From a virus, in IMG/VR virus record IMGVR_UViG_3300027985_001318, positions 1-64,000 of that record: a stretch of 64,000 nt of DNA; one strand, given 5' to 3'. Both the position numbers and the translations under genes were made by a program. The notes beneath the pieces are model-generated. The model searched no databases. It saw nothing but the letters and a program-made list of their open reading frames with translations, and was not told the origin of the DNA. The first letter of the stretch is position 1, and the number at the start of each line of letters is the position of its first letter. This document shows, piece after piece, positions 3,545 to 51,354 of this stretch.

Positions 3545-5590
3545 ATGTCTGATTTGATGGCTGGTTTGATTGAGAAACGTCTGGCGGTTTCTCAGGAAGG
3601 GGTATTGGATTTTCTGTTTGGTAAGAAGTCCAGCAAGAACGAAACTCCTTCTTTGAAGAAGTTGGAACGACTCGAGGAAGAACTCAAGAAAGTAACGTCT
3701 AGGGAAGCTTTGGACGTAGCCAATGGCCGTAGTAAACCGAGCCAGGAGGTTCTTGACAAACTCATGGAGCTAGCGGAGAAACACGCAGCTCCGTCTATGG
3801 TTTACAAGCAAAACCGGCAGCTGTTTGACATCCTTGTAAAGCTGGTAAAGTTGCCGGAACCTAAACCATACTGGGTTTATGAAGAACTCAGCGGAGCCTC
3901 TTCCGCTAGCGAAGCGGAAAAGATCGCCAAGGATTTCATCCGAGTGATGGAACCCCAGGTTAAGCTGATGTCTCAAGCCAAAAACTTGAAGATCTACGAA
4001 GCCAGTGAGGATCAGCTGTTTGCTGACGTTAGTTCGGGGTTTCAGGCAAATCTGAAGTTTGCTGAGAGTTGTCGCTACGACCACCCCACCCCACACGAAA
4101 CTTATTTGGCAGCCTGTTTGGCTCAGGACTTCGGCTATCCGGCCAGTGTGTTCAGCAATCGTGAAGGCGATGGCGTTAGTGAGCTCTTTGAGCAGAACGA
4201 AACGCTGTTTAAGTCACTAGAAAAAGCTCTGGATGAAATAGCCGATGAAGCCGGGGCTTTCGAAATGTGCTGGATGGGTGGCGATCCAGCCAATCGTAAG
4301 CACTTTTATCCTGGTAACGACGATGTCGATTTCCTGGTACGCGGTCGCTGTATTCTGCTCGACTACGTATTGGACTTGAAGATCGCTCAGGAAGATCTGG
4401 ACGGGAATGACGAAGAAGCTGAAAAGCTCTTTGCCGATATCAATACCGCGATGGAGTCACTGGATGATCTGGAACTTCTGGTAAGTAGCATGGAGGCCGC
4501 TCAAGCTGATCCGCATTTTGGTAAGTACAACTTACCTTTGTACAAATCGATGCTGGATCAAACTTGCGCTAAACTCCAGCTTTCCGGCACCGCACTGTCT
4601 GTCGAGTCTTTTGGTCCGCAGAACGTACTTTCCACCGAAGGCGTCAAAGAAGTTATCTCTAAACTCTACGGGGTAATTAAAGAGCTTCTGGCGAGACTCG
4701 TGACTTGGTTCAAGAACACGTTCACTGCAAAGAACGCTGTGATGTTGAGGATAGCTAAAGGTAACGTTAATGCTCTGAGCAAACTGAACAAAACCAGCTG
4801 GAATGGCGATACCTCTGCCAGTTTCAAAAGTAAATCTGTCTGTGGCCTGATTTTTGCAAAAACTTCCGGTCACTGCAAAAACTTCCGTGAGCTGAAAGAT
4901 TTGTTGGATGGTTGGGACAAACAAATCGAGCATTATCAGGTAGATATCTTTGATTCGTTGCAAATCCTCAAATCTGCGGTTAGAAAACAACCAGAAGACC
5001 AGGAAAAACCACTGGGGGATTTAGAGGAAGGGATATTGGGAGGTAAGAACAACCCAGGTTCTTATGTCAATAAAGCCAGGGAGTTTATGCGACTGGCTGG
5101 TAACGAGCAAGACAAGCGACCGAACGAAGAGAAAGATTACGTCGTTCTGGATAGTCTTGGTAGTTTTGAAGACATGAAGCATTTTTGTCAGAAACTAGAG
5201 CACGACAAAAAGGTTCGCTCTATGGATAATGGGTTGCAAGAGATCATAGACACCTGCGATGATCTTATCAAGAAAGTTAATAAAACCTTGAACGACAACC
5301 CAAACTCCGCCAGAATATGCCGTCATGTTCAGAACGCTCTGAGTTCAGCTTATGCTTTTAACCATCTTCGTGCTGAACTATTGTTTCAGACACATCGCGC
5401 CCTGGAAGTTTCTTTACGAGCCGGGGCTGGCGATAAGAATGGTTCTAGCTATAGCGCTTACCAGCACCAGCAAAACGACCAGCAGTTTATGCAGCAGCAT
5501 AACCAAAATCACCACCAAGCAGTCCAACAGCACAATCAAGATATGCTGCACCATCAGCAGATGGTACAGCACCACAACAGCGGTTTCTAA
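3545..5590 (+). CDS. Probable inner-head virion protein with cleavable propeptide and His/Gln-rich tail (681 aa)
   Basis: The N-terminus carries AVSQE followed by GVLDFLFGKK at about residues 14-28. This looks like the propeptide end of phiKZ-type internal head proteins, which are cut by the prohead protease after S/A/G-x-E. A second similar stretch with SVES and LSTEGVKEVI lies near residues 350-375, so the protein may be cut twice or be a fusion of two related modules. The middle is strongly alpha-helical and charged. The last ~46 residues are almost only H, Q, N, M, S and Y (for example HQQNDQQFMQQHNQNHH). GG before the ATG is a short ribosome site, with coupling to the gene ending at 3541. 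Family assignment is inferred from motif and length, not from alignment. Confidence 0.6.
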   Translation: MSDLMAGLIEKRLAVSQEGVLDFLFGKKSSKNETPSLKKLERLEEELKKVTSREALDVANGRSKPSQEVLDKLMELAEKHAAPSMVYKQNRQLFDILVKLVKLPEPKPYWVYEELSGASSASEAEKIAKDFIRVMEPQVKLMSQAKNLKIYEASEDQLFADVSSGFQANLKFAESCRYDHPTPHETYLAACLAQDFGYPASVFSNREGDGVSELFEQNETLFKSLEKALDEIADEAGAFEMCWMGGDPANRKHFYPGNDDVDFLVRGRCILLDYVLDLKIAQEDLDGNDEEAEKLFADINTAMESLDDLELLVSSMEAAQADPHFGKYNLPLYKSMLDQTCAKLQLSGTALSVESFGPQNVLSTEGVKEVISKLYGVIKELLARLVTWFKNTFTAKNAVMLRIAKGNVNALSKLNKTSWNGDTSASFKSKSVCGLIFAKTSGHCKNFRELKDLLDGWDKQIEHYQVDIFDSLQILKSAVRKQPEDQEKPLGDLEEGILGGKNNPGSYVNKAREFMRLAGNEQDKRPNEEKDYVVLDSLGSFEDMKHFCQKLEHDKKVRSMDNGLQEIIDTCDDLIKKVNKTLNDNPNSARICRHVQNALSSAYAFNHLRAELLFQTHRALEVSLRAGAGDKNGSSYSAYQHQQNDQQFMQQHNQNHHQAVQQHNQDMLHHQQMVQHHNSGF

Positions 5591-8724: not shown

Positions 8725-9631
8725 TAAAGATCTGAATATTTCTGTGTTTCGTCCGGTCTCAACAGCTCAGGTCTTAGAAAATCTGGTTGTTGGCGAGAGG
8801 GTTATTTCAGCCAAGATGATCGAGAGCGATCCATTTACCGATGGTGAGCAAAAAGAAATAGCCGAAGAGCTTGTATGTGATGGGATTGATGAGGAAGGTC
8901 AGAGTTACTCTCTATCAGTTACTGTGTCCAACAGCATCGAAGCAACTTGGCTGCCTCTAGGTAAGACTAACCACGTCGTAGCTCCAAACGTTCGTCGAGG
9001 GGAACGTGTCCAAATTTGGCAAGCGGGCGACGACGACCGTTATTACTGGACGGAGCTTGGCTTAGACAGAAATCTTCGTCGCGGCGAGACGGTAGTTTTG
9101 GCTTTCTCTAATCGTTTCGATAACGATGACTCAGAGCTTTCTTTGGAAGAGTGTTATTTCATCGAGGTCTCCACACACCTTCAACACATCCTGCTACAGA
9201 CCAGTAAAAGTAATGGCGAAGATTTTCTGTATCAGGTGCAGTTGAATACCAAGGACAGCTTCTTTGTTCTGAAAGATGATCAAGAGCAGCATTTCTTTTT
9301 TGATTCCAAGAATAAAATACTCCGCCTACATAACGCCGACGGTAGTTTTGTGGAATTGAATCGGAAGATTATTTCCATGTTTGCTAAAGACAGTATTAAT
9401 GCCGAAGCATTGAAACTGATCAACATGAAAGCCAAAACAGTAAATGTCAAGGCTGACGATTGCAATATCACAGCAGAAACAACCGTGGATGGTAACTGTA
9501 CTGTTACCAAGAAACTCACAGCTGCTACAGTTTCTGCTGGAAGCATCGCTGCCGGCGCTGGCGGTATCTCAAGCGGAGGTAACATAGAAAGCGATGGGGT
9601 TGTCAGAGCTAAAGACTTTGTCCGCACATAG
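8717..9631 (+). CDS. Baseplate central-spike-like protein (304 aa)
   Basis: The middle (RGERVQIWQAGDDDRYYWTEL, within residues ~96-120) looks like the OB-fold seen in gp5/gpV/VgrG-type spikes. The C-terminal third is made of short hydrophobic-polar repeats (INMKAKTVNVKADDCNITAE and similar), as in the intertwined beta-helical needle of phage membrane-piercing spikes, followed by a Gly/Ala/Ser-rich end. No lysozyme domain is visible. The ATG at 8717 follows GGTGGG and overlaps the previous stop; a longer in-frame start upstream lies wholly inside the previous gene. A bidirectional terminator follows. Assignment rests on fold pattern and context. Confidence 0.55.
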   Translation: MNSKDLNISVFRPVSTAQVLENLVVGERVISAKMIESDPFTDGEQKEIAEELVCDGIDEEGQSYSLSVTVSNSIEATWLPLGKTNHVVAPNVRRGERVQIWQAGDDDRYYWTELGLDRNLRRGETVVLAFSNRFDNDDSELSLEECYFIEVSTHLQHILLQTSKSNGEDFLYQVQLNTKDSFFVLKDDQEQHFFFDSKNKILRLHNADGSFVELNRKIISMFAKDSINAEALKLINMKAKTVNVKADDCNITAETTVDGNCTVTKKLTAATVSAGSIAAGAGGISSGGNIESDGVVRAKDFVRT

Positions 9632-9640
9632 CCTAAAAAA

Positions 9641-9668
9641 GAAGGAGGGCGAAAGCCCTCCTCTTTTT
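9641..9668. terminator. Bidirectional terminator
   Basis: GGAGGGC-GAAA-GCCCTCC stem with T-runs on both strands, shared by the converging genes ending at 9631 (plus) and 9667 (minus). Confidence 0.85.
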
Positions 9669-10284
9669 AAAGTATGCCGTTATTGCGAAGCAGTTGTTCG
9701 TAAACAGCCATCTGAGCCTGCAAGGCGGTGACTTGAGTTTGAAGCTTGATACACTGAGCCTTGTAGGTGGTCTGATTGGTAATCTTCGCCAACCGCGCTG
9801 TTTCAATGCGATCATGCTCTTCGCGATCTACCGATTTGGTAAGAGGGGCTTCGTGGATATTGATAACAGCATCAACTCCGATAGTATTAACTACCTGTTC
9901 GCCAAGCTCTTCCAGGAGCCATTCCAGATTCAGACTGTCGGGAATGGCTCCCAGTGAAATACTACACACAACATGACGATAGTTGTAATCGCCCATGTTT
10001 GGATAGCTTTCGATCTGGGTATCTGGAACGTAGATTACAGTACCATCTTCAGTGAATAACGAAACAATTGCTGCTCCAGCAGCACGATCTAACTCCATCT
10101 GCTCTGTAGTAGACCCTACCGGGTCATATACGAGAGAGAAGATATCTAACCCACGAATCTCTAGGTCAGCAAACAACCGCACTGCTTTACATTCGTATAC
10201 CTTAGTAGCGTCGGCTATCCACGGCTGAGTTAAACTGTAAGTGCCAACAGTACCTACTGGCGGTGTGCGACGAACTGTTGCCAT
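9667..10284 (-). CDS. Hypothetical virion-type protein with C-terminal coiled coil (205 aa)
   Basis: Not recognised. The first ~150 residues look globular; the last ~45 (from about DREEHDRIETARLAKI) form a coiled coil with leucine and glutamine heptads, ending VYEQLLRNNGIL. This suggests oligomerisation. It lies 10 nt downstream of the 480-residue gene in the same minus operon, which points to a shared structural role in the tail or baseplate, near the spike-like gene on the other strand. Confidence 0.6.
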   Translation of the reverse strand: MATVRRTPPVGTVGTYSLTQPWIADATKVYECKAVRLFADLEIRGLDIFSLVYDPVGSTTEQMELDRAAGAAIVSLFTEDGTVIYVPDTQIESYPNMGDYNYRHVVCSISLGAIPDSLNLEWLLEELGEQVVNTIGVDAVINIHEAPLTKSVDREEHDRIETARLAKITNQTTYKAQCIKLQTQVTALQAQMAVYEQLLRNNGIL

Positions 10285-10294
10285 CGGTCACTCC

Positions 10295-11737
10295 TTACAT
10301 GTTATCCAAAGCATTGTAGATATAGTCAGCAGAGTAAGTCTCCACCCAACGACCAGCTTCACGCAACCAGGTTCCGGCAGCATCTACGTCAGTTACACCA
10401 GTGCCGGCATCCCGCCCGAATTTAGTGAGTACCAGGTACTGGACCTTATCGTAAGAGAATGCCAGGTAGATCAGCCCGTTACGTTTCAGTCGGGAGAAGT
10501 CCTGGGGTACATCGCTGTACTCGGTGATAGTTTCAGCATGACGGATAGCGGCGGCGAATAGCAACATCCATTGCTGGGTAGAAGGAGAGATCCGGTTAAA
10601 ATCAACCTCCGTGCTCGACAGAGCCACGTAGTCTTCGAATTTCTCATAAAAGTCGTAAATACCGTCCCGGTTCCGGTTGCCACCGCAAACCACAAAACCA
10701 AGAGACATATACGAATGAGTAGCATACCGTAGATACGAAGTAAGATGAGTATCGGCATAGGTTGGCATCCCTTTCTTAGCTAAGTCCAAACCCTCACTAA
10801 CCTTGAGTGATGGCGAATAAATCCCGGCCTGAAGTGTTTTGTTCGGGATCGCATACTGATCCCAATTAGGGACTATCAGAAATTCCGTTGAAATAAAAAG
10901 ATCTGGAAGGATAGCCTCCCAATCTGCGCGACCATACTCGCTGTTAGCGAGGATATAGTCAACCAGCTCAGAACGAATCACGTCCGGGTTATTACCAGCC
11001 TCACCCCAGATCATCGCCGTCCAGGCAGATGGAGTAGTGAAAGTGGTGTCGGTCCGATCAACCCAGTCATATTCTTCCGCGGAGATGACGTTGTATGGAG
11101 TGTTAGGGGCTACTGTGGTGGCCAAGGTCTCGGCCAGCGACAGAGTCTTACTCAGACTACGAGACGACAGTAACGTGACCACGTCGTCGCGGGAACCGAA
11201 CAGACTGTCGAGGCTTTCTACTGGGATCAGGAAGGCAATATCGTAACCGCTGTACTGGAGACGAAAGCTTGCATCGGAAAACCAAATCTTTACTGGCAGG
11301 CCGGCGGCTAGTTCTCCGTCGATTGTTTCGATACGCGACCAACTAACCCACTCCGGCATAAAAGCACCTGAGTCTTGGAGGATATCGCCACAATTGATGT
11401 TGGTGATGGCGCTACCGTAAGCAGTAGTTAGTGCTGTCAGGAAAGTCTGGCGTTCAGAAGTAATGAAGCCTTGGAGAGATTCTTGGGAAATCCAGTAGGC
11501 GATTTCCAAGACGTGATTGGCGTCCTGTTGACTGTGAGGGTCAGCAACAGGATTGGTTGCTAAACCTCGGTTGCGAAAACTGATGAGTTCTACGCCGGGT
11601 TGCGCATCGTTCCGATATTTGCTAGACTCGATAGCGTAGGAGCGAGAGTCCTCTGAGATCTCGCCGAAAATAGCCACTTTGTCAGTGGTATTATCGACGT
11701 AATTGCCGAGTTGAATAAAACCATAGAGCGGAGTCAT
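10295..11737 (-). CDS. Hypothetical virion structural protein (480 aa)
   Basis: Unrecognised acidic, aromatic-rich protein without signal peptide. AGAGGTG upstream of the minus-strand ATG is a clear ribosome site. It is first in a two-gene minus operon driven by a likely promoter at 11767-11778. Neighbours (spike-like gene, tail fibre, inner-head gene) suggest a tail or baseplate part. No catalytic motif was seen. Confidence 0.6.
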   Translation of the reverse strand: MTPLYGFIQLGNYVDNTTDKVAIFGEISEDSRSYAIESSKYRNDAQPGVELISFRNRGLATNPVADPHSQQDANHVLEIAYWISQESLQGFITSERQTFLTALTTAYGSAITNINCGDILQDSGAFMPEWVSWSRIETIDGELAAGLPVKIWFSDASFRLQYSGYDIAFLIPVESLDSLFGSRDDVVTLLSSRSLSKTLSLAETLATTVAPNTPYNVISAEEYDWVDRTDTTFTTPSAWTAMIWGEAGNNPDVIRSELVDYILANSEYGRADWEAILPDLFISTEFLIVPNWDQYAIPNKTLQAGIYSPSLKVSEGLDLAKKGMPTYADTHLTSYLRYATHSYMSLGFVVCGGNRNRDGIYDFYEKFEDYVALSSTEVDFNRISPSTQQWMLLFAAAIRHAETITEYSDVPQDFSRLKRNGLIYLAFSYDKVQYLVLTKFGRDAGTGVTDVDAAGTWLREAGRWVETYSADYIYNALDNM

Positions 11738-41300: not shown

Positions 41301-42034
41301 CCATTGATGCTGAAGAACGTAAAGAATTTGATCGTGCAATTGAATTGCTTCCTGACTCTGTCTCCAAAGGCCTTAAGGTTGTTTCACCGTCTGACTTACC
41401 GGCCGGTACTTTGTACCATATTTCAACCAATCATAACATCCCGACTTTTATCCCTTGCGTTTCTAAGCGCACTATGGAAGGAGAGGATCGTACCGTACCG
41501 AGGGTTTGTGTTAGTCCGGACGTATTGAAGGCCATGCTTGGCTACGGCGCTGTTTACAGCGATTTCCAGGATTGGGACGAAAAGAAACAGCGTTTGAAGA
41601 ACAACGCTTATTGGATGATCTATCGCTTCGATTTCGACTTGGCGATTCGTCCAGTTAAACGCCTGCTACCGGATCAACGTGATACCGATGAACACTGGTT
41701 AATCACTTACTCCAAAAAGACTCGCGAGTATAAACCCACTAAAATCGGCAAGCTGAAGATGGTTGGTTACAGTACTCAGTACAAGAATGGTCAGATGGTT
41801 GATCGCCTGGAATTGGTGATCGAAGTCACTGGCTCAGAAATCCTTTTCTCTGACGGCGTGCTGTTAACTAAGGGGTTTTATAAACTTTGTCTTTCTAACT
41901 GGAAAGTAAGTAACCGAAAACATACAGAGATTTCGGTTACAAGCACTGCTATCAAGAAAGACGAGTACGACGCTTACATGAGAGAACGGGTTTCTCTTGA
42001 ACATTTACCACCATCTGCTTCCTGGGGGTCATGA
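41297..42034 (+). CDS. Hypothetical protein beside prohead protease (245 aa)
   Basis: N-terminal half has LYHISTNHNIPTFIP followed by PRVCVSPDVLKAMLG. This layout is loosely like ADP-ribosyltransferase-fold proteins (LYH-x-S, then an R-x-S-x-D-like strand), but no catalytic set can be assigned. The C-terminus is LPPSASWGS and the next gene's product ends VPPSASW, so both carry the same terminal tag. Overlaps both neighbours by 4 nt, so translation is coupled with the protease. Confidence 0.6.
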   Translation: MTIDAEERKEFDRAIELLPDSVSKGLKVVSPSDLPAGTLYHISTNHNIPTFIPCVSKRTMEGEDRTVPRVCVSPDVLKAMLGYGAVYSDFQDWDEKKQRLKNNAYWMIYRFDFDLAIRPVKRLLPDQRDTDEHWLITYSKKTREYKPTKIGKLKMVGYSTQYKNGQMVDRLELVIEVTGSEILFSDGVLLTKGFYKLCLSNWKVSNRKHTEISVTSTAIKKDEYDAYMRERVSLEHLPPSASWGS

Positions 42035-42819
42035 TGGCTACTGCTACTTTGATCTACGCTGGCGATCCATTGGCCGGCACTAACAAGGCCGGTAAGCTCA
42101 AAGTCAACGATGAAGGTTATTACCTGGACGTTGTTTTGGGCGCACTGGATGTTTTCAATTCGGCTGGCGCTATGTATGTTTCTGAACCGGCTTTGCCGTT
42201 GTTCAAAGACAATACTAACCTTCAACGTCAAGCCCAGACACGGAATCTCCGTGGCGAGTACGGCCATCCAAAACGCCTGCCGAACCAATCCATCCAGGAT
42301 TTCGTTCGCCGCTGCTGTACTATCTACGAAGACTGTGTTTCTCACCACATGACTAACTTGCGTTTGATGCCTACCAATCAGCCTGGCGCTAAAGGCAAGA
42401 AGGTTATCCTGATTATCGCTGACGTCAAGCCCTGCGGTCCTCACGGAGCGGTTCTGAAAGCTCAGCTCGATAACCCGAACGAAAACGTCTGCTTCAGCAT
42501 TCGTTCTCTGACCGAAGACGTGATGGTTGGTGGGGTGATCGAGAAACGTCTCCGCACCATCATCACCTGGGATTACGTGAACGAGCCTGGGATCAGTTAC
42601 GCAAACAAGTTCCAAAGTCCTTCTCTGGAATGCGTGTATGGTGATGATGTGATTATCACGGCCGATATCGTTCGTTCGTTGCAGTCTGACTACGAAGCTT
42701 CTGGCATGGGCAATGAGAGTTACGGCCTGGCACTGGAAAGCGTGGTGGCTGCTTTCGGACTTGCTGAGCTCGAGCACAAGCAGAAAGAATTCGCTGTTCC
42801 TCCTAGCGCCAGCTGGTAA
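42031..42819 (+). CDS. Prohead maturation protease, T4 gp21-like (262 aa)
   Basis: RGEYGHP with His79 matches the GEL-x-HP histidine box of gp21-type prohead proteases. A spaced NVCFSIRS strand (Ser156 or Ser159) matches the nucleophile region, preceded by the usual VSHHMTNLRL segment and a GAVLKAQLDNP helix. The enzyme would cut scaffold and inner-head proteins after S/A/G-x-E during capsid maturation, for instance the AVSQE site in the product of 3545-5590. Ends in VPPSASW. A second ATG at 42034 is possible. phiKZ has its protease at this relative position. Confidence 0.7.
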   Translation: MMATATLIYAGDPLAGTNKAGKLKVNDEGYYLDVVLGALDVFNSAGAMYVSEPALPLFKDNTNLQRQAQTRNLRGEYGHPKRLPNQSIQDFVRRCCTIYEDCVSHHMTNLRLMPTNQPGAKGKKVILIIADVKPCGPHGAVLKAQLDNPNENVCFSIRSLTEDVMVGGVIEKRLRTIITWDYVNEPGISYANKFQSPSLECVYGDDVIITADIVRSLQSDYEASGMGNESYGLALESVVAAFGLAELEHKQKEFAVPPSASW

Positions 42820-44730: not shown

Positions 44731-44763
44731 ATGGGGAGCACCTCGCTCCCCATTTCTTTTTTT
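44731..44763 (+). terminator. Rho-independent terminator
   Basis: ATGGGGAGC-ACCTC-GCTCCCCAT stem followed by TTCTTTTTTT. Confidence 0.85.
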
Positions 44764-45117: not shown

Positions 45118-45148
45118 ATAGGCCGACGCCTCAAAGCGTCGGCCTTAT
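45118..45148 (+). terminator. GC-rich hairpin, probable terminator
   Basis: GGCCGACGC-CTCAAA-GCGTCGGCC stem with TTAT after it; strong stem, weak U-tract. Confidence 0.65.
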
Positions 45149-45225: not shown

Positions 45226-45588
45226 ATGGACATATACACTATCCAGATTGGTAAATGGCGAAAAGCTAAAGCCTTGGGTTTTGAGGTCTTGAACATTACG
45301 GTAATGAATGGTGAAAAGCGACTAGCTCCGACGTGGGATTTACTTAGAGCTTGGCAGAAAGGCGAGGTCACAGAAGAAGAGTATCGCACAGAGTATTTTT
45401 GGTTGATGCGAGAAAGCCTTAAAGCTAACCTGGAGTTCTGGCTAGATCTTTCTAAGAAAGAAACTCTAGTACTTGGTTGTTATTGCGCCCCTGGCTTATT
45501 CTGTCATCGTCGCTTGCTCGTAGAAATTTTTACCATGTTCTTTGCTAGTCGTGGAATTATCGCTGAGTACAAAGGGGAGATTGAATGA
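45226..45588 (+). CDS. DUF488-like protein with CYC...CHR motif (120 aa)
   Basis: IQIGKWRKAKALGFEVLNIT at the start and LGCYCAPGLFCHRRLLVEIF near residues 83-105 give the C-x-C-(x)n-CHR signature of the DUF488/DUF4326-type family, found in phages and conflict loci; function unproven. ATG 45226 has GAGGTG upstream; a TTG at 45214 is in frame. The stop overlaps the NADAR start (ATGA), so the two are made together. First gene of a four-gene overlapping cassette. Confidence 0.65.
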   Translation: MDIYTIQIGKWRKAKALGFEVLNITVMNGEKRLAPTWDLLRAWQKGEVTEEEYRTEYFWLMRESLKANLEFWLDLSKKETLVLGCYCAPGLFCHRRLLVEIFTMFFASRGIIAEYKGEIE

Positions 45589-46109
45589 ATCCGAAAGAAG
45601 ATGGTGTTACTCACATCAACGTCTACTCAAAAGCAGCCACAAAACTAGGTTGTTTTCTGTCCAACTTTTATCCGGTTGATCTTGAAATCTCTGGCGAACA
45701 TTATCGCAGTATCGAAGCTTATTGGTATTCGCTTTGGGCTGAGTCGGTAGTAGATGAAAAAACCGCATCAGGCGGAGCTTATCGTAATCTTCAGAGTAAA
45801 GTCAAAGGTTCGTATGGTTATCAGGCAAAGATGCTTGGTAAGAACCTGATGAAATTAGCTTTTGGCGGGGAGATTCCGGAAGGTAGTCTACCGGATACTA
45901 ATTTCCAGAAGAAGATAATCTCGGCGATTCGTCAGAAGCTCTGGAAATATCCGGAATACTTAGAGCTCTTTAAAGAGTCGCGTTTGCCTTTTGCTCACTA
46001 CTACTTTTTCGGTACCGTAGATAACGCAACGGTAGTGGACGCCAATAGACATCCGTGGTTGATTAATGGATTAGAGAATCTTCGATTCGAACTTAAGGAC
46101 CTGAGATGA
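45585..46109 (+). CDS. NADAR (YbiA-like, DUF1768) domain protein (174 aa)
   Basis: LSNFYPVDLEISGEHYRSIEAYWY (split here: SNFYP at 26-30, SIEAYWY at 42-48) is the NADAR entry signature. The end HYYFFGTVDNATVVDANRHP and a final L-x-NLR helix fit the family. Known NADAR proteins act as N-glycosidases on ADP-ribosylated nucleobases or in riboflavin-intermediate breakdown, and some reverse DNA ADP-ribosylation by toxin systems. Here a counter-defence role is attractive but unproven. Overlaps both neighbours by 4 nt. Confidence 0.8.
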   Translation: MNPKEDGVTHINVYSKAATKLGCFLSNFYPVDLEISGEHYRSIEAYWYSLWAESVVDEKTASGGAYRNLQSKVKGSYGYQAKMLGKNLMKLAFGGEIPEGSLPDTNFQKKIISAIRQKLWKYPEYLELFKESRLPFAHYYFFGTVDNATVVDANRHPWLINGLENLRFELKDLR

Positions 46110-46291
46110 AAGTAGCTTTAGTCGGTAGTTCACTATGTTTTGAAATGGCCCGTGAATTGGCCAGTAAAGGTATCGAAGTCGAAGTGGTTAGTAAGATACC
46201 GACTGAGGTAAGTATCAACGAGTCCCCAGTTAGTAAGTTTAAGCCACAGCATGAATATAATCGTGTTCCCCCACGTAAACTTTCTAAGTGA
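46106..46291 (+). CDS. Small Rossmann-like peptide (61 aa)
   Basis: MKVALVGSSLCFEMARELASKGIEVEVV (given in parts: VALVGSSLC, ARELASKG, IEVEVV) is a beta-alpha-beta unit with a short Gly/Ser loop, like the first third of a nucleotide-binding Rossmann fold. The rest is a basic tail ending PPRKLSK. Too short to be an enzyme alone. ATGA overlap upstream and a 4-nt overlap with a possible GTG start downstream argue that it is a real coupled gene. Confidence 0.6.
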   Translation: MKVALVGSSLCFEMARELASKGIEVEVVSKIPTEVSINESPVSKFKPQHEYNRVPPRKLSK

Positions 46292-46302
46292 GTGATTCTG
46301 CA

Positions 46303-47046
46303 ATGATTGAAAGAGTTGAGATAGGGAGTGTTTATCTTTCTAGTTCCGGGATCAAATTCCGTGTAGATGACGTTAGAAAGCATGGTCAGGATTGTAGTCT
46401 GGCTATGGTCTGTTATACAAACCTGGAGCCCACTAAAGATTCGCCTACTGGAACCGGTTGGGTAATTAGTGAGTCGTTATTTCTTAAGTTGTTTGATGAG
46501 TGTTCTGAACCTGAACGAGTTGTCTTCTTGGACTTCGACGGGGTCTTCACTATTACCTCAGATGGTGTTTTCTGTAAAGATTACGTTAATCGTCGAGCTA
46601 TTAGTCTACTTAACTCAGTTTTCGAGAAAACTAAAGCCAAGATCGTAGTAAGTAGTTCTTGGCGAGTTGGCGAAGATCGCGTAAGGTTGAATGCCTATTT
46701 AGATCTGGCTGGAATTCGAGGTAAATTACACTTGGATTTTAAGACGACGAGCAAAGGAAGTGGTTTTCGTGGCGAACAGGTCAAGGAGTGGCTTTCGAGA
46801 CATCCTGAGGTCGAGCAATACGCCATTGTTGATGACGAAACAGATTTCTTCGACGATCAATTAAAGAACCTTGTTCATGTCGATATGTACGAAGGTTTTG
46901 GTGGTAGGGATTGCGCTCGGCTACTGTCGGTATTTGGTTTGGCTGTAGATAAGGATTCGCTACGTCCTTTTAAGACTAGGGGCGTTGGTGGCGACCTTAA
47001 GCCGTACTATGACGAATATTTGGAAAGTTTAGAAAAGGGCGGTTAG
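46303..47046 (+). CDS. HAD phosphatase of RNA-repair type with DUF1653-like N-domain (247 aa)
   Basis: Residues 1-65 (IGSVYLSSSGIKFRVDDVRK) look like the small DUF1653 beta-barrel. From 72 on is a HAD domain: VFLDFDGVF (Asp77, Asp79), SSSWR (117-121), the RGEQVKEWL helix and IVDDETDFF (Asp177, Asp178). This set matches the HAD family attached to multi-domain RNA repair proteins, where it could remove 2'- or 3'-phosphates. A GTG at 46288 is an alternative start. Last gene of the cassette with the NADAR and CYC/CHR proteins. Confidence 0.7.
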   Translation: MIERVEIGSVYLSSSGIKFRVDDVRKHGQDCSLAMVCYTNLEPTKDSPTGTGWVISESLFLKLFDECSEPERVVFLDFDGVFTITSDGVFCKDYVNRRAISLLNSVFEKTKAKIVVSSSWRVGEDRVRLNAYLDLAGIRGKLHLDFKTTSKGSGFRGEQVKEWLSRHPEVEQYAIVDDETDFFDDQLKNLVHVDMYEGFGGRDCARLLSVFGLAVDKDSLRPFKTRGVGGDLKPYYDEYLESLEKGG

Positions 47047-47109
47047 TCCTTTTCTTTTTTAGGTTTTGTTACCACCAATTGATTTATTCGCCTAAAGCTG
47101 AAAGCAAAG

Positions 47110-47143
47110 GATTCGTTGGAGAGAAATTGAATCCCAACGAATC
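47110..47143 (+). promoter_or_regulatory. Inverted repeat just upstream of promoter motif
   Basis: GATTCGTTGG (47110-47119) pairs with CCAACGAATC (47134-47143). It abuts and overlaps the promoter motif by a few bases, so it could be an operator or the 3' hairpin of the upstream unit. No U-tract. Confidence 0.5.
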
Positions 47144-47160
47144 TCAGACCTATATGTCTA
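47140..47160 (+). promoter_or_regulatory. AATCTCAGACCTATATG promoter motif
   Basis: The 17-nt string AATCTCAGACCTATATG is identical to the one at 58962. It lies 71 nt before the ATG at 47227 and 22 nt before a leader hairpin. Confidence 0.65.
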
Positions 47161-47177
47161 AAGTGGTAATAGAGAAA

Positions 47178-47196
47178 AGAATGGATGGTCCATTCT
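47178..47196 (+). promoter_or_regulatory. Leader stem-loop, TGG loop
   Basis: AGAATGGA-TGG-TCCATTCT, a perfect 8-bp stem, possibly extended by AGAG/CTCT. The hairpin at 58997 has the same loop with different, compensated stem bases. Confidence 0.65.
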
Positions 47197-47226
47197 CTCT
47201 AGCCAATACACTTAGAGAGGTGAGCT

Positions 47227-47478
47227 ATGAATTGGGTAAATATCGATAAGGCCGAAGGCCTGGCTTTGCTGCAAGCTAACGGTTACTGGCTGAAGGGTAC
47301 TTCAGCCAAGCCGCTGAAACGTCTGGAAGGGACCAAGAAAGTGGTCTGGTTTCAGCCGCAGCGGAAGCTGGTGGTCTTGATTGACCATCACCTACCGATC
47401 GGTCATAATGGCCACAACAAGGTTTTGTTGGAGAATTGCAGTTCTCCGGTGTGGGAAGAAATTCAACTGGAGGTTTAA
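47227..47478 (+). CDS. Hypothetical small protein (83 aa)
   Basis: Beta-rich (KVVWFQPQRKLVVLIDHH). GAGAGGTGAG gives a strong ribosome site. First of three small genes behind the promoter at 47140; spacing to the next is 1 nt. No family recognised. Confidence 0.6.
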   Translation: MNWVNIDKAEGLALLQANGYWLKGTSAKPLKRLEGTKKVVWFQPQRKLVVLIDHHLPIGHNGHNKVLLENCSSPVWEEIQLEV

Positions 47479-47479
47479 T

Positions 47480-47647
47480 ATGGAAAACGAAGAAAAGCGA
47501 ACAGCGGCGCAAAGCCGTAATGAGGAGATGGTTTCCATCTCCTACGACGCTGGCAAAAAGGCCGGTGAAGTCGAGTCCTTTAACAAAGGTTTCGTGACAG
47601 GTATTCTGTTCACCTGTCTGATAGGTTGGCTCTTCAAAGGGAAGTAA
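47480..47647 (+). CDS. Small tail-anchored-type membrane protein (55 aa)
   Basis: ATG 47480 follows CTGGAGG. Charged N-terminus, a glycine-patterned middle (YDAGKKAGEVESFNKG) and a C-terminal helix GFVTGILFTCLIGWLF ending KGK. A longer in-frame reading from 47381 would sit inside the previous gene and is rejected. Confidence 0.6.
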   Translation: MENEEKRTAAQSRNEEMVSISYDAGKKAGEVESFNKGFVTGILFTCLIGWLFKGK

Positions 47648-47650
47648 CGG

Positions 47651-47899
47651 ATGGCCGTAAAGAAAACATACCAGGGAAAGAAATACAAACTTTCCTTGGT
47701 TGAATATCCGAAGACTCGTCGTTATGAGATCCACGGGTTCGATAACGAGGACGGAGTCTGGATCTGCAATACTAAGACCAAACTCCGGACTTATGACTAT
47801 TACGCAGCCAACGAACAGTTCATGTCGGAAGTTCGTGAACTGGAGCGTGATGGCGTAGAGTTCTCCGAGGTCTATCTCGGCGGACATAACTGGCTGTAA
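47651..47899 (+). CDS. Hypothetical small protein (82 aa)
   Basis: Lys/Tyr-rich beta-type protein (KKTYQGKKYKLSLVEYPKTR). ATG 3 nt after the previous stop. Last gene of the unit, followed by a terminator. No motif. Confidence 0.6.
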   Translation: MAVKKTYQGKKYKLSLVEYPKTRRYEIHGFDNEDGVWICNTKTKLRTYDYYAANEQFMSEVRELERDGVEFSEVYLGGHNWL

Positions 47900-47901
47900 G
47901 T

Positions 47902-47932
47902 AGAGGGAGGCTTACGCCTCCCTCTGTTTTTA
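47902..47932 (+). terminator. Rho-independent terminator
   Basis: AGAGGGAGGC-TTAC-GCCTCCCTCT stem followed by GTTTTTATT. Confidence 0.85.
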
Positions 47933-47952
47933 TTCTCTCAAGGAGCAATGAA

Positions 47953-48375
47953 ATGACTTTTACTGAAATCCTGTCTCTGATCAACGCAAACGCGCTTAGC
48001 GCCGATAAACAAAATAATACCGTACCTGAACGGGCGATAGTTTACGCCGTGGAGCGTAAACTGGTGTCCGATCTCACCGGCAATGTTCTCATCAGCGCCA
48101 ATGATAAAATGGTAAGAAATGCGATGCGTGGGATTTCATTGGAAGATATAGTGCTCTTCCAGGAAGTAGATTCCTTTGTCATGCGCCTTTTCAGAATGGT
48201 CGATGAGCTGGCTACTGCGGAGGAAGAGGTCGCAAAGGCCATGGCTGAACCTGAGCCGGACAAGAAGTTGGTAGCTGAGCATGATCGCCGAGCGATGAGT
48301 CGGCGTAGCTCAATTAAAGATCTGATTGGACTCATTAACGGCGAAGTTCATAGCTTCGCAAAAAATAAAAGCTGA
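47953..48375 (+). CDS. Hypothetical helical protein (140 aa)
   Basis: Unrecognised, helical, with an acidic Glu/Ala segment (ATAEEEVAKAMAEPEPDKK). CAAGGAG gives a good ribosome site. Convergent with the tail tube gene; the two share the terminator at 48401. Confidence 0.6.
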   Translation: MTFTEILSLINANALSADKQNNTVPERAIVYAVERKLVSDLTGNVLISANDKMVRNAMRGISLEDIVLFQEVDSFVMRLFRMVDELATAEEEVAKAMAEPEPDKKLVAEHDRRAMSRRSSIKDLIGLINGEVHSFAKNKS

Positions 48376-48400
48376 GCCGGACCAGTGCCGAGTAAGCGTA

Positions 48401-48430
48401 AAAAAGGAGGGCTTTCGCCCTCCTTTTTTT
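48401..48430. terminator. Bidirectional terminator
   Basis: AAAAAGGAGGGC-TTTC-GCCCTCCTTTTT, fully symmetric, between converging genes ending at 48375 and 48435. Confidence 0.9.
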
Positions 48431-48434
48431 TTGC

Positions 48435-49301
48435 TTACAGCTTCAGGAAGGAGCTGTTGGCTTCCTCGATCTGCTCGGCATAACCGTTACCGTGCTGAAC
48501 ATCAGCATCGATACTATCGGCGAATGCCGGGGCCAGGTTCGGGTTAACGCCAGACATGTTCAGTGAATCGAGCACGGTCTGGGCGTAATTACGAACACCG
48601 TAACCGTACTGAGTGATGGCGGAGAAAGTCACGGAGACTTCTACGTTCTCACCACCGGCGGAGATGTCACGAGAACCTTCGATCGGACCGGAGGTGTTCG
48701 GCATCATGTTGGTGCACAGCCAGGCTTCAACAACTTCCCGGTGCGTCACGTCCGGTTCGATGAACAGAACGGTCATGCCGGTGTATTGCGGAGTGGGGTT
48801 GATCTTCTTGGTCAGGCCACGAGTGACGACCATGGGGATCTTGTTGGTCGGATCACCCAGAAGGTTGAGGATCCAACCTTCCATGGTGTTCTTGACCGGC
48901 TTACCGCGCTTTTCTGGCCAGGTAAAGGCAGGTTCGGAACGTTCACGAGTAACGTTCCCGACGTCTTGTTGCATTTCACCGGCGCCGTTCAGCGTGGTTT
49001 CCACCCACTCAACGTTCAGGGTACTACGCAGACCTTCGATCCGAGTAGCGTGACGTTCGACCAGAGCCTTCAGGGCGTCTACCCACAAGGTGGGATCCGG
49101 CAGATCCTGGAAGCCCTCGGGAGCTTGCAACAGAATTGCGATGAGGTTCTTGCGAACGTAGTTTTGGTTACCGGCCAGGTTGTTCAGATCGGGCATATAG
49201 CCCTGCTGGCCACCGTCGATGATATTGGCTGCTGTTGCAAAACGATCGACTTGCATCCCACGCTTGGGATCCAGCACCAACTTAGTTACTGCACTAGCCA
49301 T
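48435..49301 (-). CDS. Tail tube protein (288 aa)
   Basis: Directly downstream of the sheath gene and overlapping its stop by 8 nt, the usual sheath-tube arrangement of myoviruses. Beta-rich with a GGENVEVSVTFSAITQYG strand pair and a helical C-terminus, as for the tube protein of phiKZ-like phages. It forms the rigid inner tube through which DNA and virion proteins pass. Third codon positions favour C and G more than the genome norm, fitting a high copy number. Minus-strand unit ends at a bidirectional terminator. Confidence 0.8.
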   Translation of the reverse strand: MASAVTKLVLDPKRGMQVDRFATAANIIDGGQQGYMPDLNNLAGNQNYVRKNLIAILLQAPEGFQDLPDPTLWVDALKALVERHATRIEGLRSTLNVEWVETTLNGAGEMQQDVGNVTRERSEPAFTWPEKRGKPVKNTMEGWILNLLGDPTNKIPMVVTRGLTKKINPTPQYTGMTVLFIEPDVTHREVVEAWLCTNMMPNTSGPIEGSRDISAGGENVEVSVTFSAITQYGYGVRNYAQTVLDSLNMSGVNPNLAPAFADSIDADVQHGNGYAEQIEEANSSFLKL

Positions 49302-51354
49302 TGATCAGATCCTCCATCCGATGCGCTTCAACAGTGAAGGACGAGGCCGTCTGCATGTTGTTCGCATACATGTGAATGGTTGCGTGGTTGGAGTACCCGC
49401 GCTGTTCATCCTGGGTAGTGTAGTAGGTTTCCGGAACGATCTGCACGCGGTTGTCGAAACGACCGGTGGTGTTCTCGGTAATCGTCTGATCCGACCGCTG
49501 ACGATATTGTTCGCGAGTCAGGTCGGTACGACCCACCAGGGTACGCCAGGTACGGAAGCAAACCTTTTGGCACTCTACGGCGATCATGACGTTCAACAGA
49601 CTGTTCAGTACTGAGGTGTCGTCGTCGTAGACGGTTTGCATGGCCGGGATGAAGAAAGAACGAGTAGAATAGGACTGAGCCCAGATCAACCCGTTATCCC
49701 AGTCACGGTTACGTACACTGGATTCCTTGAACGTACAGTTCAGGTCACGCAGCATAGTAACGTGGTTGTTTGGATCTACGTCGGGAGCGTATGCGCCGCG
49801 CAGAATACCATCACCGGCACCAGCGTAACGCGACAGCATGGCGGCGATTTCGATGGTCATCGGAACCAGTTTCTTCCACGCGGAGTTGATCAGCTTACCA
49901 GCATGACCGACGATGGCGATACGAGTAACGCCAGTACCGTACAGGACAGATTCCGGTGACAGCTCTGCTGCGGTACGCAACATAACAGCCATAGAGGACT
50001 CGGTTACTGCGTCATTGATCGACAGTGCCACGTCCTGGGTAGAAACGGCAACCCAGAGGTCCTTACGTACAGCGGTAACACCCATCAACGCCCGCTTGGT
50101 TTCGGCATCGAAACCGGTGTCGTAGATAACGCTCTGCGGGAACACAGCGACGTCCTTGAACTTATTGGTGAGATCACCGTAGTTCAGGAACTCGTTACGA
50201 CACATCTCGTTATAAGCTGTGTCGCCCATGGTACCATCAGCACCGCCACCGGCGTAGAAGGTGGAATTCTCGGTAAAGCTCAGGCCACCAGACAGAACAT
50301 CTGCCACCGCAAAGGTGTGGTAGGGACGACCATCGATGTCCACTGCGGTCAGCAGGTTCATCAGGTACTCGCCACCATCGACCAGATCGGGATTGGCCTT
50401 CTGTTCTTCAGCGTAGATCAGACCCAGGACTTCAGCGATTTGGTCATGGTAGAAGTGCGCGGCACCGAAGGGTGCATATACCGGAGCCAGGCCAGTGGTG
50501 GGATCGTCATCAACGTAGTTGGCGTCGAAGGCTTCATCGATGAAGTACTCGGTACTGGTACGGTCATCGAAAGAACCGGGCTTCAGACTGAAGTTGATGT
50601 AACGAGCACTGTAGATGGTCTCGGTTACGTTCGGGGTGGAACGAGCGTTGGGACGCTCCACCAGCTGCATCCGGTACACGAAAGCGTTGATGGCGTTAAC
50701 CAGACGTTCGTCTTGCGGAGTAGCGGAATCGGTGGTCGGCGACCACATACGCAGCCCTACGTTGTCACCGAACTTACCGAAGTCGTTCAGTTCACCGTCA
50801 AAGAACGGGTAGAGCGTGGACTGGGTGCCCAGGTCAGCATCGGTTTGGGTACCGATCTTGGATTGAGCTGCCCCAATGGCGTGGGTGGGGGCGTTGTCGT
50901 AGACGAACTTGGCCAGGTAACCATCGATGGTAGAACCGGTGTCGATAGCTTGGCCGTTAGCGTCCAGAACCAGATCACCGGAAGCATTGCGCTGGTATAC
51001 CGGCAGTTTGGTTTTCAGCAGATCCAGGTAAATGCTTACACGAGACTTTTTGGCATCGGCGGGGATCAGACGTTGGTAAACGGTCTGGTTAGCTTCGGCC
51101 GCAAAAACCTCGACCATGAACGGAGTAGCATGGGTAGCGTACTCGCTCCGGTAATTGAAAGACTCAGCTCCGTAAATGCCAGTAGCATCAGCCGGATTCA
51201 GAAAAGTTGCCTTATCAGAACCACGTTGAGCAAAGAACATTACGTGAGGAGTATGAATCGGAAGTGTCTCAACTCCCGGGTCCACCCTGCGTGCTGAAGA
51301 GTCTTTGATACCCTCCAATTTAAACTGCGGGGCGGCGTTCAAGAATTCTGACAT
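49294..51354 (-). CDS. Contractile tail sheath protein (686 aa)
   Basis: Start MSEFLNAAPQFKLEGIKDSS, followed by a SYRSEYATHATPFMVEVFAA-type region and VYQRLIPADAKKSRV, the typical N-terminal sheath pattern of jumbo myoviruses. The C-terminal third holds conserved sheath parts: LWVAVSTQDVALSINDAV, NDCTF/RNRDWDNGLIWAQS-like and VCFRTWRTLVGRTDLT. The latter lies in the domain that links neighbouring subunits and contacts the tube. AAGGAG precedes the minus ATG. First gene of the sheath-tube operon, C/G-biased codons. Confidence 0.85.
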   Translation of the reverse strand: MSEFLNAAPQFKLEGIKDSSARRVDPGVETLPIHTPHVMFFAQRGSDKATFLNPADATGIYGAESFNYRSEYATHATPFMVEVFAAEANQTVYQRLIPADAKKSRVSIYLDLLKTKLPVYQRNASGDLVLDANGQAIDTGSTIDGYLAKFVYDNAPTHAIGAAQSKIGTQTDADLGTQSTLYPFFDGELNDFGKFGDNVGLRMWSPTTDSATPQDERLVNAINAFVYRMQLVERPNARSTPNVTETIYSARYINFSLKPGSFDDRTSTEYFIDEAFDANYVDDDPTTGLAPVYAPFGAAHFYHDQIAEVLGLIYAEEQKANPDLVDGGEYLMNLLTAVDIDGRPYHTFAVADVLSGGLSFTENSTFYAGGGADGTMGDTAYNEMCRNEFLNYGDLTNKFKDVAVFPQSVIYDTGFDAETKRALMGVTAVRKDLWVAVSTQDVALSINDAVTESSMAVMLRTAAELSPESVLYGTGVTRIAIVGHAGKLINSAWKKLVPMTIEIAAMLSRYAGAGDGILRGAYAPDVDPNNHVTMLRDLNCTFKESSVRNRDWDNGLIWAQSYSTRSFFIPAMQTVYDDDTSVLNSLLNVMIAVECQKVCFRTWRTLVGRTDLTREQYRQRSDQTITENTTGRFDNRVQIVPETYYTTQDEQRGYSNHATIHMYANNMQTASSFTVEAHRMEDLING

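Follow-up and report, generated by a model that had tools for sequence, protein, structure and literature searches.

What does a block of four small, tightly packed genes do among the structural genes of a virus whose tail sheath has its nearest relatives in phiKZ-like jumbo phages? The block lies in the virus record IMGVR_UViG_3300027985_001318, of which we analysed bases 1-64000 out of 223,650 (this whole 64,000-nucleotide stretch of DNA is called the window). It encodes, in order, a DUF488-N3a protein, a NADAR protein, a 61-residue peptide (p61) and a fusion of a DUF1653-like barrel with a HAD_SAK phosphatase. The closest relatives of the tail sheath are those of Erwinia phage pEa_SNUABM_54 (42%), Xanthomonas phage LucasX (40%) and Klebsiella phage Eowyn (39%), and it also matches the phiKZ gp29 model. 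An initial annotation had described the four genes as one small NAD/ADP-ribose or RNA-end repair system that could reverse damage inflicted by host defence. We found that DUF488 is the resident gene of a conserved locus and that NADAR, p61 and the HAD fusion are cargo whose links to it are weak and recur in part; this cargo may serve in ADP-ribose clean-up. Since a DNA-level search with the region across 50,697 phage records gave zero matches, all comparisons were made at the protein level.

The ADP-ribose theme starts from the second gene. Its product matches phrog_652 at 4e-31, a family that also takes in T4 gp30.3 (9e-51) and extends as far as E. coli YbiA (1e-7). The Pfam NADAR model (PF08719) gave no match to the protein even at an E-value of 10 and a profile-profile comparison with YbiA alone was weak (probability 38%, E 3e-4), so that membership was settled by phrog_652 and by the fold. 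An AlphaFold2 model built on 53 sequences, with a predicted local distance difference test score of 96.1, retrieved 8bau, 2b3w and 8bat from the PDB with Foldseek, all of them NADAR/YbiA structures (probabilities 1.00, 1.00 and 0.97; next match 0.11). Among viral models the best matches were phage proteins, and many were proteins named NADAR. Of the 53 relatives, 52 share E44 and 52 share H138, which borders strand 139-142. These positions fit the catalytic glutamate, and the catalytic histidine in the last strand, that have been reported for phage NADARs (PMC11125620). Judged by profiles and model, the protein is a divergent NADAR of the gp30.3 type, in line with the initial annotation, and by analogy it would hydrolyse guanosine-linked ADP-ribose. 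Pairwise BLASTP against T4 gp30.3 gave no significant similarity (E 0.06) and a single-sequence scan of viral contigs for NADAR found nothing; a profile made from nine phage homologues led to 80 NADAR loci. Other NADAR loci have peculiarities of their own, such as a long additional C-terminal region in Vibrio phage MS32 (L003:3992-4888), tandem duplicates in Pseudanabaena phage Pam2 (L010:3498-4431), and an ADP-ribosylglycohydrolase gene about 0.6-0.9 kb downstream of NADAR in very large enterobacterial phages (L008:3971-6053, L082 and L092).

The first gene had been labelled CYC/CHR, and this assignment held: the protein matches DUF488-N3a with 46.1 bits (7.4e-12) against a curated cut-off of 27, and phrog_2450 at 2.4e-35, while its match to DUF4326 is below cut-off. 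Residues C85, Y86, C87, H94 and R95 are invariant in 70 of 70 aligned homologues, and we predict a Cys-dependent phosphatase of the rhodanese-phosphatase superfamily. The homologue in phage 201phi2-1 is annotated as similar to phiKZ gp151, and on that account we assign the window protein to the gp151 family. A longer DUF488 protein of 292 amino acids is encoded at L171:9932-10810; it matches phrog_2450 over nearly its full length, and its C-terminal half is absent from the window protein.

The product of the fourth gene matches HAD_SAK_2 with 71 bits (1.7e-19) against a cut-off of 27.5. Its D77, D79, S118, R156, D177 and D178 are invariant in 31 HAD_SAK relatives, leaving the DxD, Ser and DD motifs intact, and Foldseek places the domain with T4 polynucleotide kinase/phosphatase (2ia5, probability 0.96) and bacterial Pnkp1/Rnl/Hen1 (4xru, 0.82). 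The gene had been described simply as a HAD phosphatase, which is correct for this domain but overlooked a DUF1653-like domain at the N-terminus (residues 4-69). The protein thus comprises a DUF1653-like part (about residues 1-65), HAD_SAK (about 70-205) and a C-terminal tail. The N-terminal domain matches phrog_9138 at 5e-24, a family found in the phage collection in large phages only (all listed records over 200 kb). The Pfam DUF1653 model left the window segment unmatched and recognised two of seven relatives (best E 0.0047). Foldseek aligned the modelled domain to the DUF1653 structure 3be3 with probability 1.00 and a root-mean-square deviation of 2.2 over 57-59 columns, and to Tudor domains likewise with probability 1.00; the model therefore suggests a DUF1653-like barrel. 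None of 74 other phage HAD_SAK open reading frames (ORFs) matches the DUF1653-like domain, and a match over 80% of the protein was found in no phage record. Elsewhere, a HAD_SAK phosphatase gene is followed 2 nucleotides on by an ADP-ribosylglycohydrolase-like gene (L287:7992-9433), which connects HAD_SAK independently with ADP-ribose processing, and several phage contigs (L236, L238, L242 and L277) carry two HAD_SAK genes each, close to one another.

The third gene, p61, has a coding score of 0.21 bits per codon and an AAGGA Shine-Dalgarno-like sequence, and is probably a real gene and an orphan. Pfam, PHROGs, the phage collection and the fetched loci contain no relative of it, and its Pfam hits are all sub-threshold (E 0.04 or worse). 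The suggestion that p61 is a Rossmann-like peptide is not supported, as 61 residues are too few for a full domain and no family is above cut-off.

All four co-directional ORFs have an in-frame coding composition like that of phages (0.18-0.21 bits per codon), whereas the other forward frames score negative, and Shine-Dalgarno-like sequences stand ahead of the first three. The overlaps reported by the initial annotation are real at the first two junctions, DUF488/NADAR and NADAR/p61, each a 4-nucleotide ATGA. A further 4-nucleotide overlap, of p61 and the HAD gene, is doubtful: it needs a GTG start at 46288, which has no Shine-Dalgarno sequence, and ATG 46303 encodes the residue at which most relatives of the N-terminal domain start. 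For these two reasons the ATG, 11 nucleotides past the p61 stop, is the more probable start. Terminator-like hairpins flank the block, and the four genes are likely to form a single transcript. A scan for sigma-70 promoters found matches at chance level only; phiKZ-like phages rely on their own RNA polymerases. Composition gives little ground for assuming a foreign origin: the GC content at third codon positions is 0.34-0.42 in the four genes and 0.51 +/- 0.07 in the other window genes, only 1-2 standard deviations low and about the other genes' range.

Synteny explains how the block is laid out. Whether or not NADAR accompanies it, the DUF488 gene of about 20 distinct phiKZ-like lineages stands between a block that ends in the Peptidase S80 protease and the tail tube and sheath genes, which are oriented opposite to DUF488. 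The interval from DUF488 to the tube gene ranges from 0.45 to 3.6 kb and its contents differ almost completely across lineages. Such a variable interval (45588-48435 in the window) was also seen in L016, L103, L124, L138 and L172; L016 and L124 hold related cargo between DUF488 and tube, the L016 protein being HslV-peptidase-like.

We surveyed recurrence in 50 DUF488-centred records, the window included. A phrog_652 NADAR occurs somewhere in 31 of these, phrog_9138 in 11 and HAD_SAK in four, and the full four-gene set occurs in none besides the window. The claim that the four genes make up one system is not borne out by this co-occurrence in jumbo phages, as no other record has all four and p61 is without relatives. 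On a smaller scale, NADAR follows DUF488 directly on the same strand in three further phages. Two of these pairs are at the tail locus (L098, DUF488 3566-3952 and NADAR 3930-4469; L095, DUF488 9344-9829 and NADAR 9983-10423), and the third, in L171, has its genes 6 nucleotides apart in a different context. By a rough estimate, on a count made post hoc, 0.2-0.4 such pairs would be expected by chance against the three found. In the NADAR tree the window groups with L098 (support 66/68) and L095 falls elsewhere; the tree does not establish that the three tail-locus NADARs arose once, nor does the approximately unbiased test reject it (p-AU 0.475). HAD_SAK follows DUF488 in the window only. In L147 it is at the tail locus about 2 kb upstream of DUF488, and in two contig groups (L163-166 and L167/168/170) DUF488 is preceded, at a distance of a few hundred bases, by a phrog_9138 domain.

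How might these genes work together? Our tentative answer, to which we give slightly less than even weight, is that the block is ADP-ribose clean-up cargo, serving counter-defence, at a conserved phiKZ-like locus. NADAR, p61 and the fusion, following the resident DUF488 apparently in one transcript, would provide the activities. NADAR would hydrolyse the N-glycosidic bond that links ADP-ribose to guanine in nucleic acid of the phage or the host, or that of a small ADP-ribose derivative, and so could reverse attack by a host ADP-ribosyltransferase. Both phosphatases may then take terminal phosphates off the freed ADP-ribose derivatives or off damaged RNA ends, with the DUF1653-like barrel as a possible docking or binding module for the phosphatase step. 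We infer these substrates, as well as the view that the enzymes act on the same damage. In vitro, T4 gp30.3 frees guanosine of ADP-ribose in both DNA and RNA (PMC11125620, PMC11833690), and phage NADARs have been predicted mainly to counter ADP-ribose-based defence (PMC9503650). In addition, Iyer and colleagues predicted that the DUF4326 clade of Cys-phosphatase domains, which in DNA viruses is frequently fused to NADAR, Macro or SLOG, acts on the terminal phosphates of ADP-ribose or of its breakdown products (PMC9503650). The ADP-ribose theme of the initial annotation is thus sustained, by the shared PHROG with T4 gp30.3 and by these earlier predictions. Our fold search also found that some giant-virus proteins matching the NADAR model, including marseillevirus proteins, are named as carriers of tyrosine or dual-specificity phosphatases.

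In a more specific version, which seems to us unlikely, DUF488 and NADAR act in sequence on one ADP-ribose substrate: NADAR would free the adduct, DUF488 would trim off its phosphate, and the DUF1653-HAD_SAK fusion would mend the nucleic-acid end.

Several observations weigh against ADP-ribose clean-up. T4 gp30.3, active in vitro, failed to rescue cells from DarT1 (PMC11125620). Seven residues past the glutamate, where DarT1-linked NADAR has its catalytic lysine, the window NADAR carries Trp, and lysine is uncommon there in its subfamily; this active-site lysine (K95 of E. coli C7 NADAR) is reported as largely, but not universally, conserved (PMC11543638). DUF488 at the tail locus is mostly without NADAR, and so would have a function independent of it. 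The HAD_SAK fold is like that of an RNA/DNA-end phosphatase, which fits RNA repair equally, and the block sits amid structural genes.

The rest of the record bears on the choice between ADP-ribose clean-up and repair of RNA. A macrodomain gene is located at 97996-98310 on the minus strand (L296:13927-14367; Pfam Macro 1.4e-11), and its protein carries a GNIF...PVNTLGVMGNGLALAFKWKYP motif, which we take to resemble DarG/TARG1-type macrodomains. The record thus encodes two unrelated kinds of ADP-ribose-processing domain. An Rnl2-type RNA ligase, RtcB and KptA were unmatched in the 223.7-kb record, with positive controls matching, and no tRNA genes were found in it; a T4 Rnl1-type ligase was likewise unmatched, in a search whose control gave no match either. 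Because of the macrodomain and the lack of matches to Rnl2-type ligase, RtcB, KptA and tRNA genes, we favour clean-up over self-contained, ligation-based RNA repair, and the RNA-end repair suggested by the initial annotation is disfavoured in that form. A DarG-like function of the block was considered and rejected, as there is no transferase gene nearby and no macrodomain within the block; no ADP-ribosyltransferase was matched among the four block proteins or the neighbouring products scanned with Pfam and PHROGs.

The strongest alternative is that the DUF488-to-tube interval is an insertion hot spot, where NADAR, the peptide and the HAD fusion are unrelated in role and merely co-transcribed. 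The near-complete turnover of the interval between lineages is what such a hot spot would give. The same can be said of a four-gene set found once, of HAD_SAK in only four of the 50 records, of a peptide without relatives, and of tail-locus NADARs that the tree does not show to be one clade. Chance is harder to reconcile with the DUF488-NADAR order in three other phages, the HAD_SAK gene near DUF488 in L147, the DUF1653-like domain just upstream of DUF488 in the two contig groups, and the giant-virus proteins named as NADAR-phosphatases. We regard chance cargo as possible, if somewhat doubtful.

Alternatively, HAD_SAK and DUF488 might remove the 2'- or 3'-phosphates of cleaved tRNA while NADAR clears ADP-ribosylated by-products of repair. 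The HAD domain's likeness to T4 polynucleotide kinase/phosphatase and Pnkp1/Rnl/Hen1 agrees with this, and surveys have assigned such HADs to RNA repair (PMC7824862, PMC9503650). Moreover, in Vequintavirinae-like phages NADAR is found within RNA-repair operons together with a phosphoesterase, an RNA ligase, a polynucleotide kinase-phosphatase and Sir2 (L011:1445-5310, L034:8056-11536 and L045:7945-11810), which strongly links the gp30.3-type NADAR to RNA repair in those phages. The missing ligase, RtcB, KptA and tRNA matches argue the other way, in a record that may be incomplete, although a host RtcB could seal the ends. On balance, RNA-end repair is in our view distinctly unlikely.

Finally, we consider it quite improbable that DUF488 serves the virion or the DNA metabolism of nucleus-forming phages, apart from ADP-ribose and with NADAR and HAD as passengers, since its fixed site, shared by about 20 lineages, between the head protease block and the tail genes, and the UvsX-like recombinase and virion protein genes that flank it in 201phi2-1 and Noxifer, are offset by an invariant C-Y-C...H-R active site that suggests an enzyme, by the predicted action of the related DUF4326 clade on ADP-ribose phosphates (PMC9503650), and by the 201phi2-1 homologue having no mass-spectrometry virion note where three proteins of the same stretch have one. 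The likelihoods that we attach to the four explanations overlap a little, since DUF488 might act independently of the other genes.

The features of the block and its surroundings are listed below; the tail tube and sheath region (48435..51354) also matches PF23806 at 7.9e-101 and phiKZ_gp29PR at 3.9e-58.

Table 1. The four-gene block, nearby hairpins and structural landmarks in the window
Feature	Position	Strand	Basis
DUF488-N3a ("CYC/CHR") protein, 120 amino acids, phiKZ gp151 family	45226..45588	+	Pfam, PHROG, motif conservation
NADAR protein, 174 amino acids, gp30.3 type (phrog_652)	45585..46109	+	phrog_652, fold, catalytic residues
61-residue orphan peptide (p61)	46106..46291	+	overlap, Shine-Dalgarno-like sequence, coding score
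DUF1653-like barrel and HAD_SAK phosphatase fusion with C-terminal tail	46303..47046	+	Pfam, phrog_9138, Foldseek, HAD motifs
Intrinsic-terminator-like hairpin with T-run, overlapping the HAD gene end	47031..47055	+	hairpin scan; fold z-score -3.9
Intrinsic-terminator-like hairpin, one gene 5' of the block	44731..44753	+	hairpin scan and folding
Strong GC hairpin, intergenic, directly 5' of the DUF488 gene	45120..45145	.	listed on minus strand; + strand fold z-score -5.8
Peptidase S80 head maturation protease, left landmark	42031..42819	+	PF20034 7.7e-69; phrog_3014 3e-68; synteny
Tail tube protein, right landmark	48435-49301	-	Pfam/PHROG scans; synteny
Tail sheath, right landmark	49294-51354	-	phrog_3242 tail sheath 5e-231; synteny

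If ADP-ribose clean-up is correct, a testable function next to an ADP-ribose hydrolase can be assigned to the widespread DUF488 (phiKZ gp151) family, and counter-defence genes could be sought in the variable interval adjoining the tail sheath gene. Phages of the phiKZ type keep their DNA in a nucleus-like compartment, so that defences acting on RNA, NAD+ or exposed DNA should matter most to them. Should DUF488 and NADAR act in sequence, they would form an undescribed adduct-removal pathway built on a widespread jumbo-phage gene. The DUF1653-HAD_SAK fusion also offers a handle on the jumbo-phage domain family phrog_9138.

Compared with known systems, the window NADAR is like T4 gp30.3 and the phage NADAR group in its phrog_652 membership, its fold, and its aligned catalytic glutamate and phage-type histidine. 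It differs in belonging to the HIN[IV]YSKG subfamily, in lacking the lysine that T4 has seven positions beyond the glutamate, and in a longer insert after the active-site helix; the T4 30.3 gene, moreover, is near alt and DNA ligase and away from DUF488. DarTG1 (DarT1-NADAR), a toxin-antitoxin system, similarly includes a NADAR enzyme with the potential to undo the ADP-ribosylation of guanine (PMC11543638), whereas the block is without an ADP-ribosyltransferase toxin gene and its NADAR has histidine in place of the DarT1-linked aspartate, in addition to the absent lysine. The HAD domain resembles HAD_SAK ("Swiss army knife") proteins and the 3'-phosphatase domain of T4 PNKP in Pfam match, motifs and fold, and differs from other phage HAD_SAK in its fusion to a jumbo-phage DUF1653-like domain.

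The DUF488-N3a protein is homologous to those of the phiKZ gp151 family, 201phi2-1 gp235 (which scores 2e-8 to the same Pfam model) and Noxifer NOXIFER_160, but in these Pseudomonas phages the gene is beside a UvsX-like gene with no NADAR or HAD annotated alongside. The closest parallel to the theme as a whole is the viral NAD+/ADP-ribose counter-defence neighbourhoods (PMC9503650), which likewise combine NADAR with a Cys-phosphatase of the DUF488/DUF4326 clade; the macrodomain in the same genome is a further likeness. Unlike them, the window has separate, overlapping genes rather than fusions and DUF488-N3a rather than DUF4326, and its set, at a tail locus, adds the orphan peptide and the DUF1653-HAD_SAK fusion. 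The statement that the combination had not been described as a unit is therefore right for the exact set, but the NADAR-phosphatase theme is already in the literature. The enzyme families and that general theme are known; what is new, as far as our searches show, is the order of the genes, the location of DUF488-NADAR pairs at a shared tail locus, and the fusion of a DUF1653-like domain with HAD_SAK.

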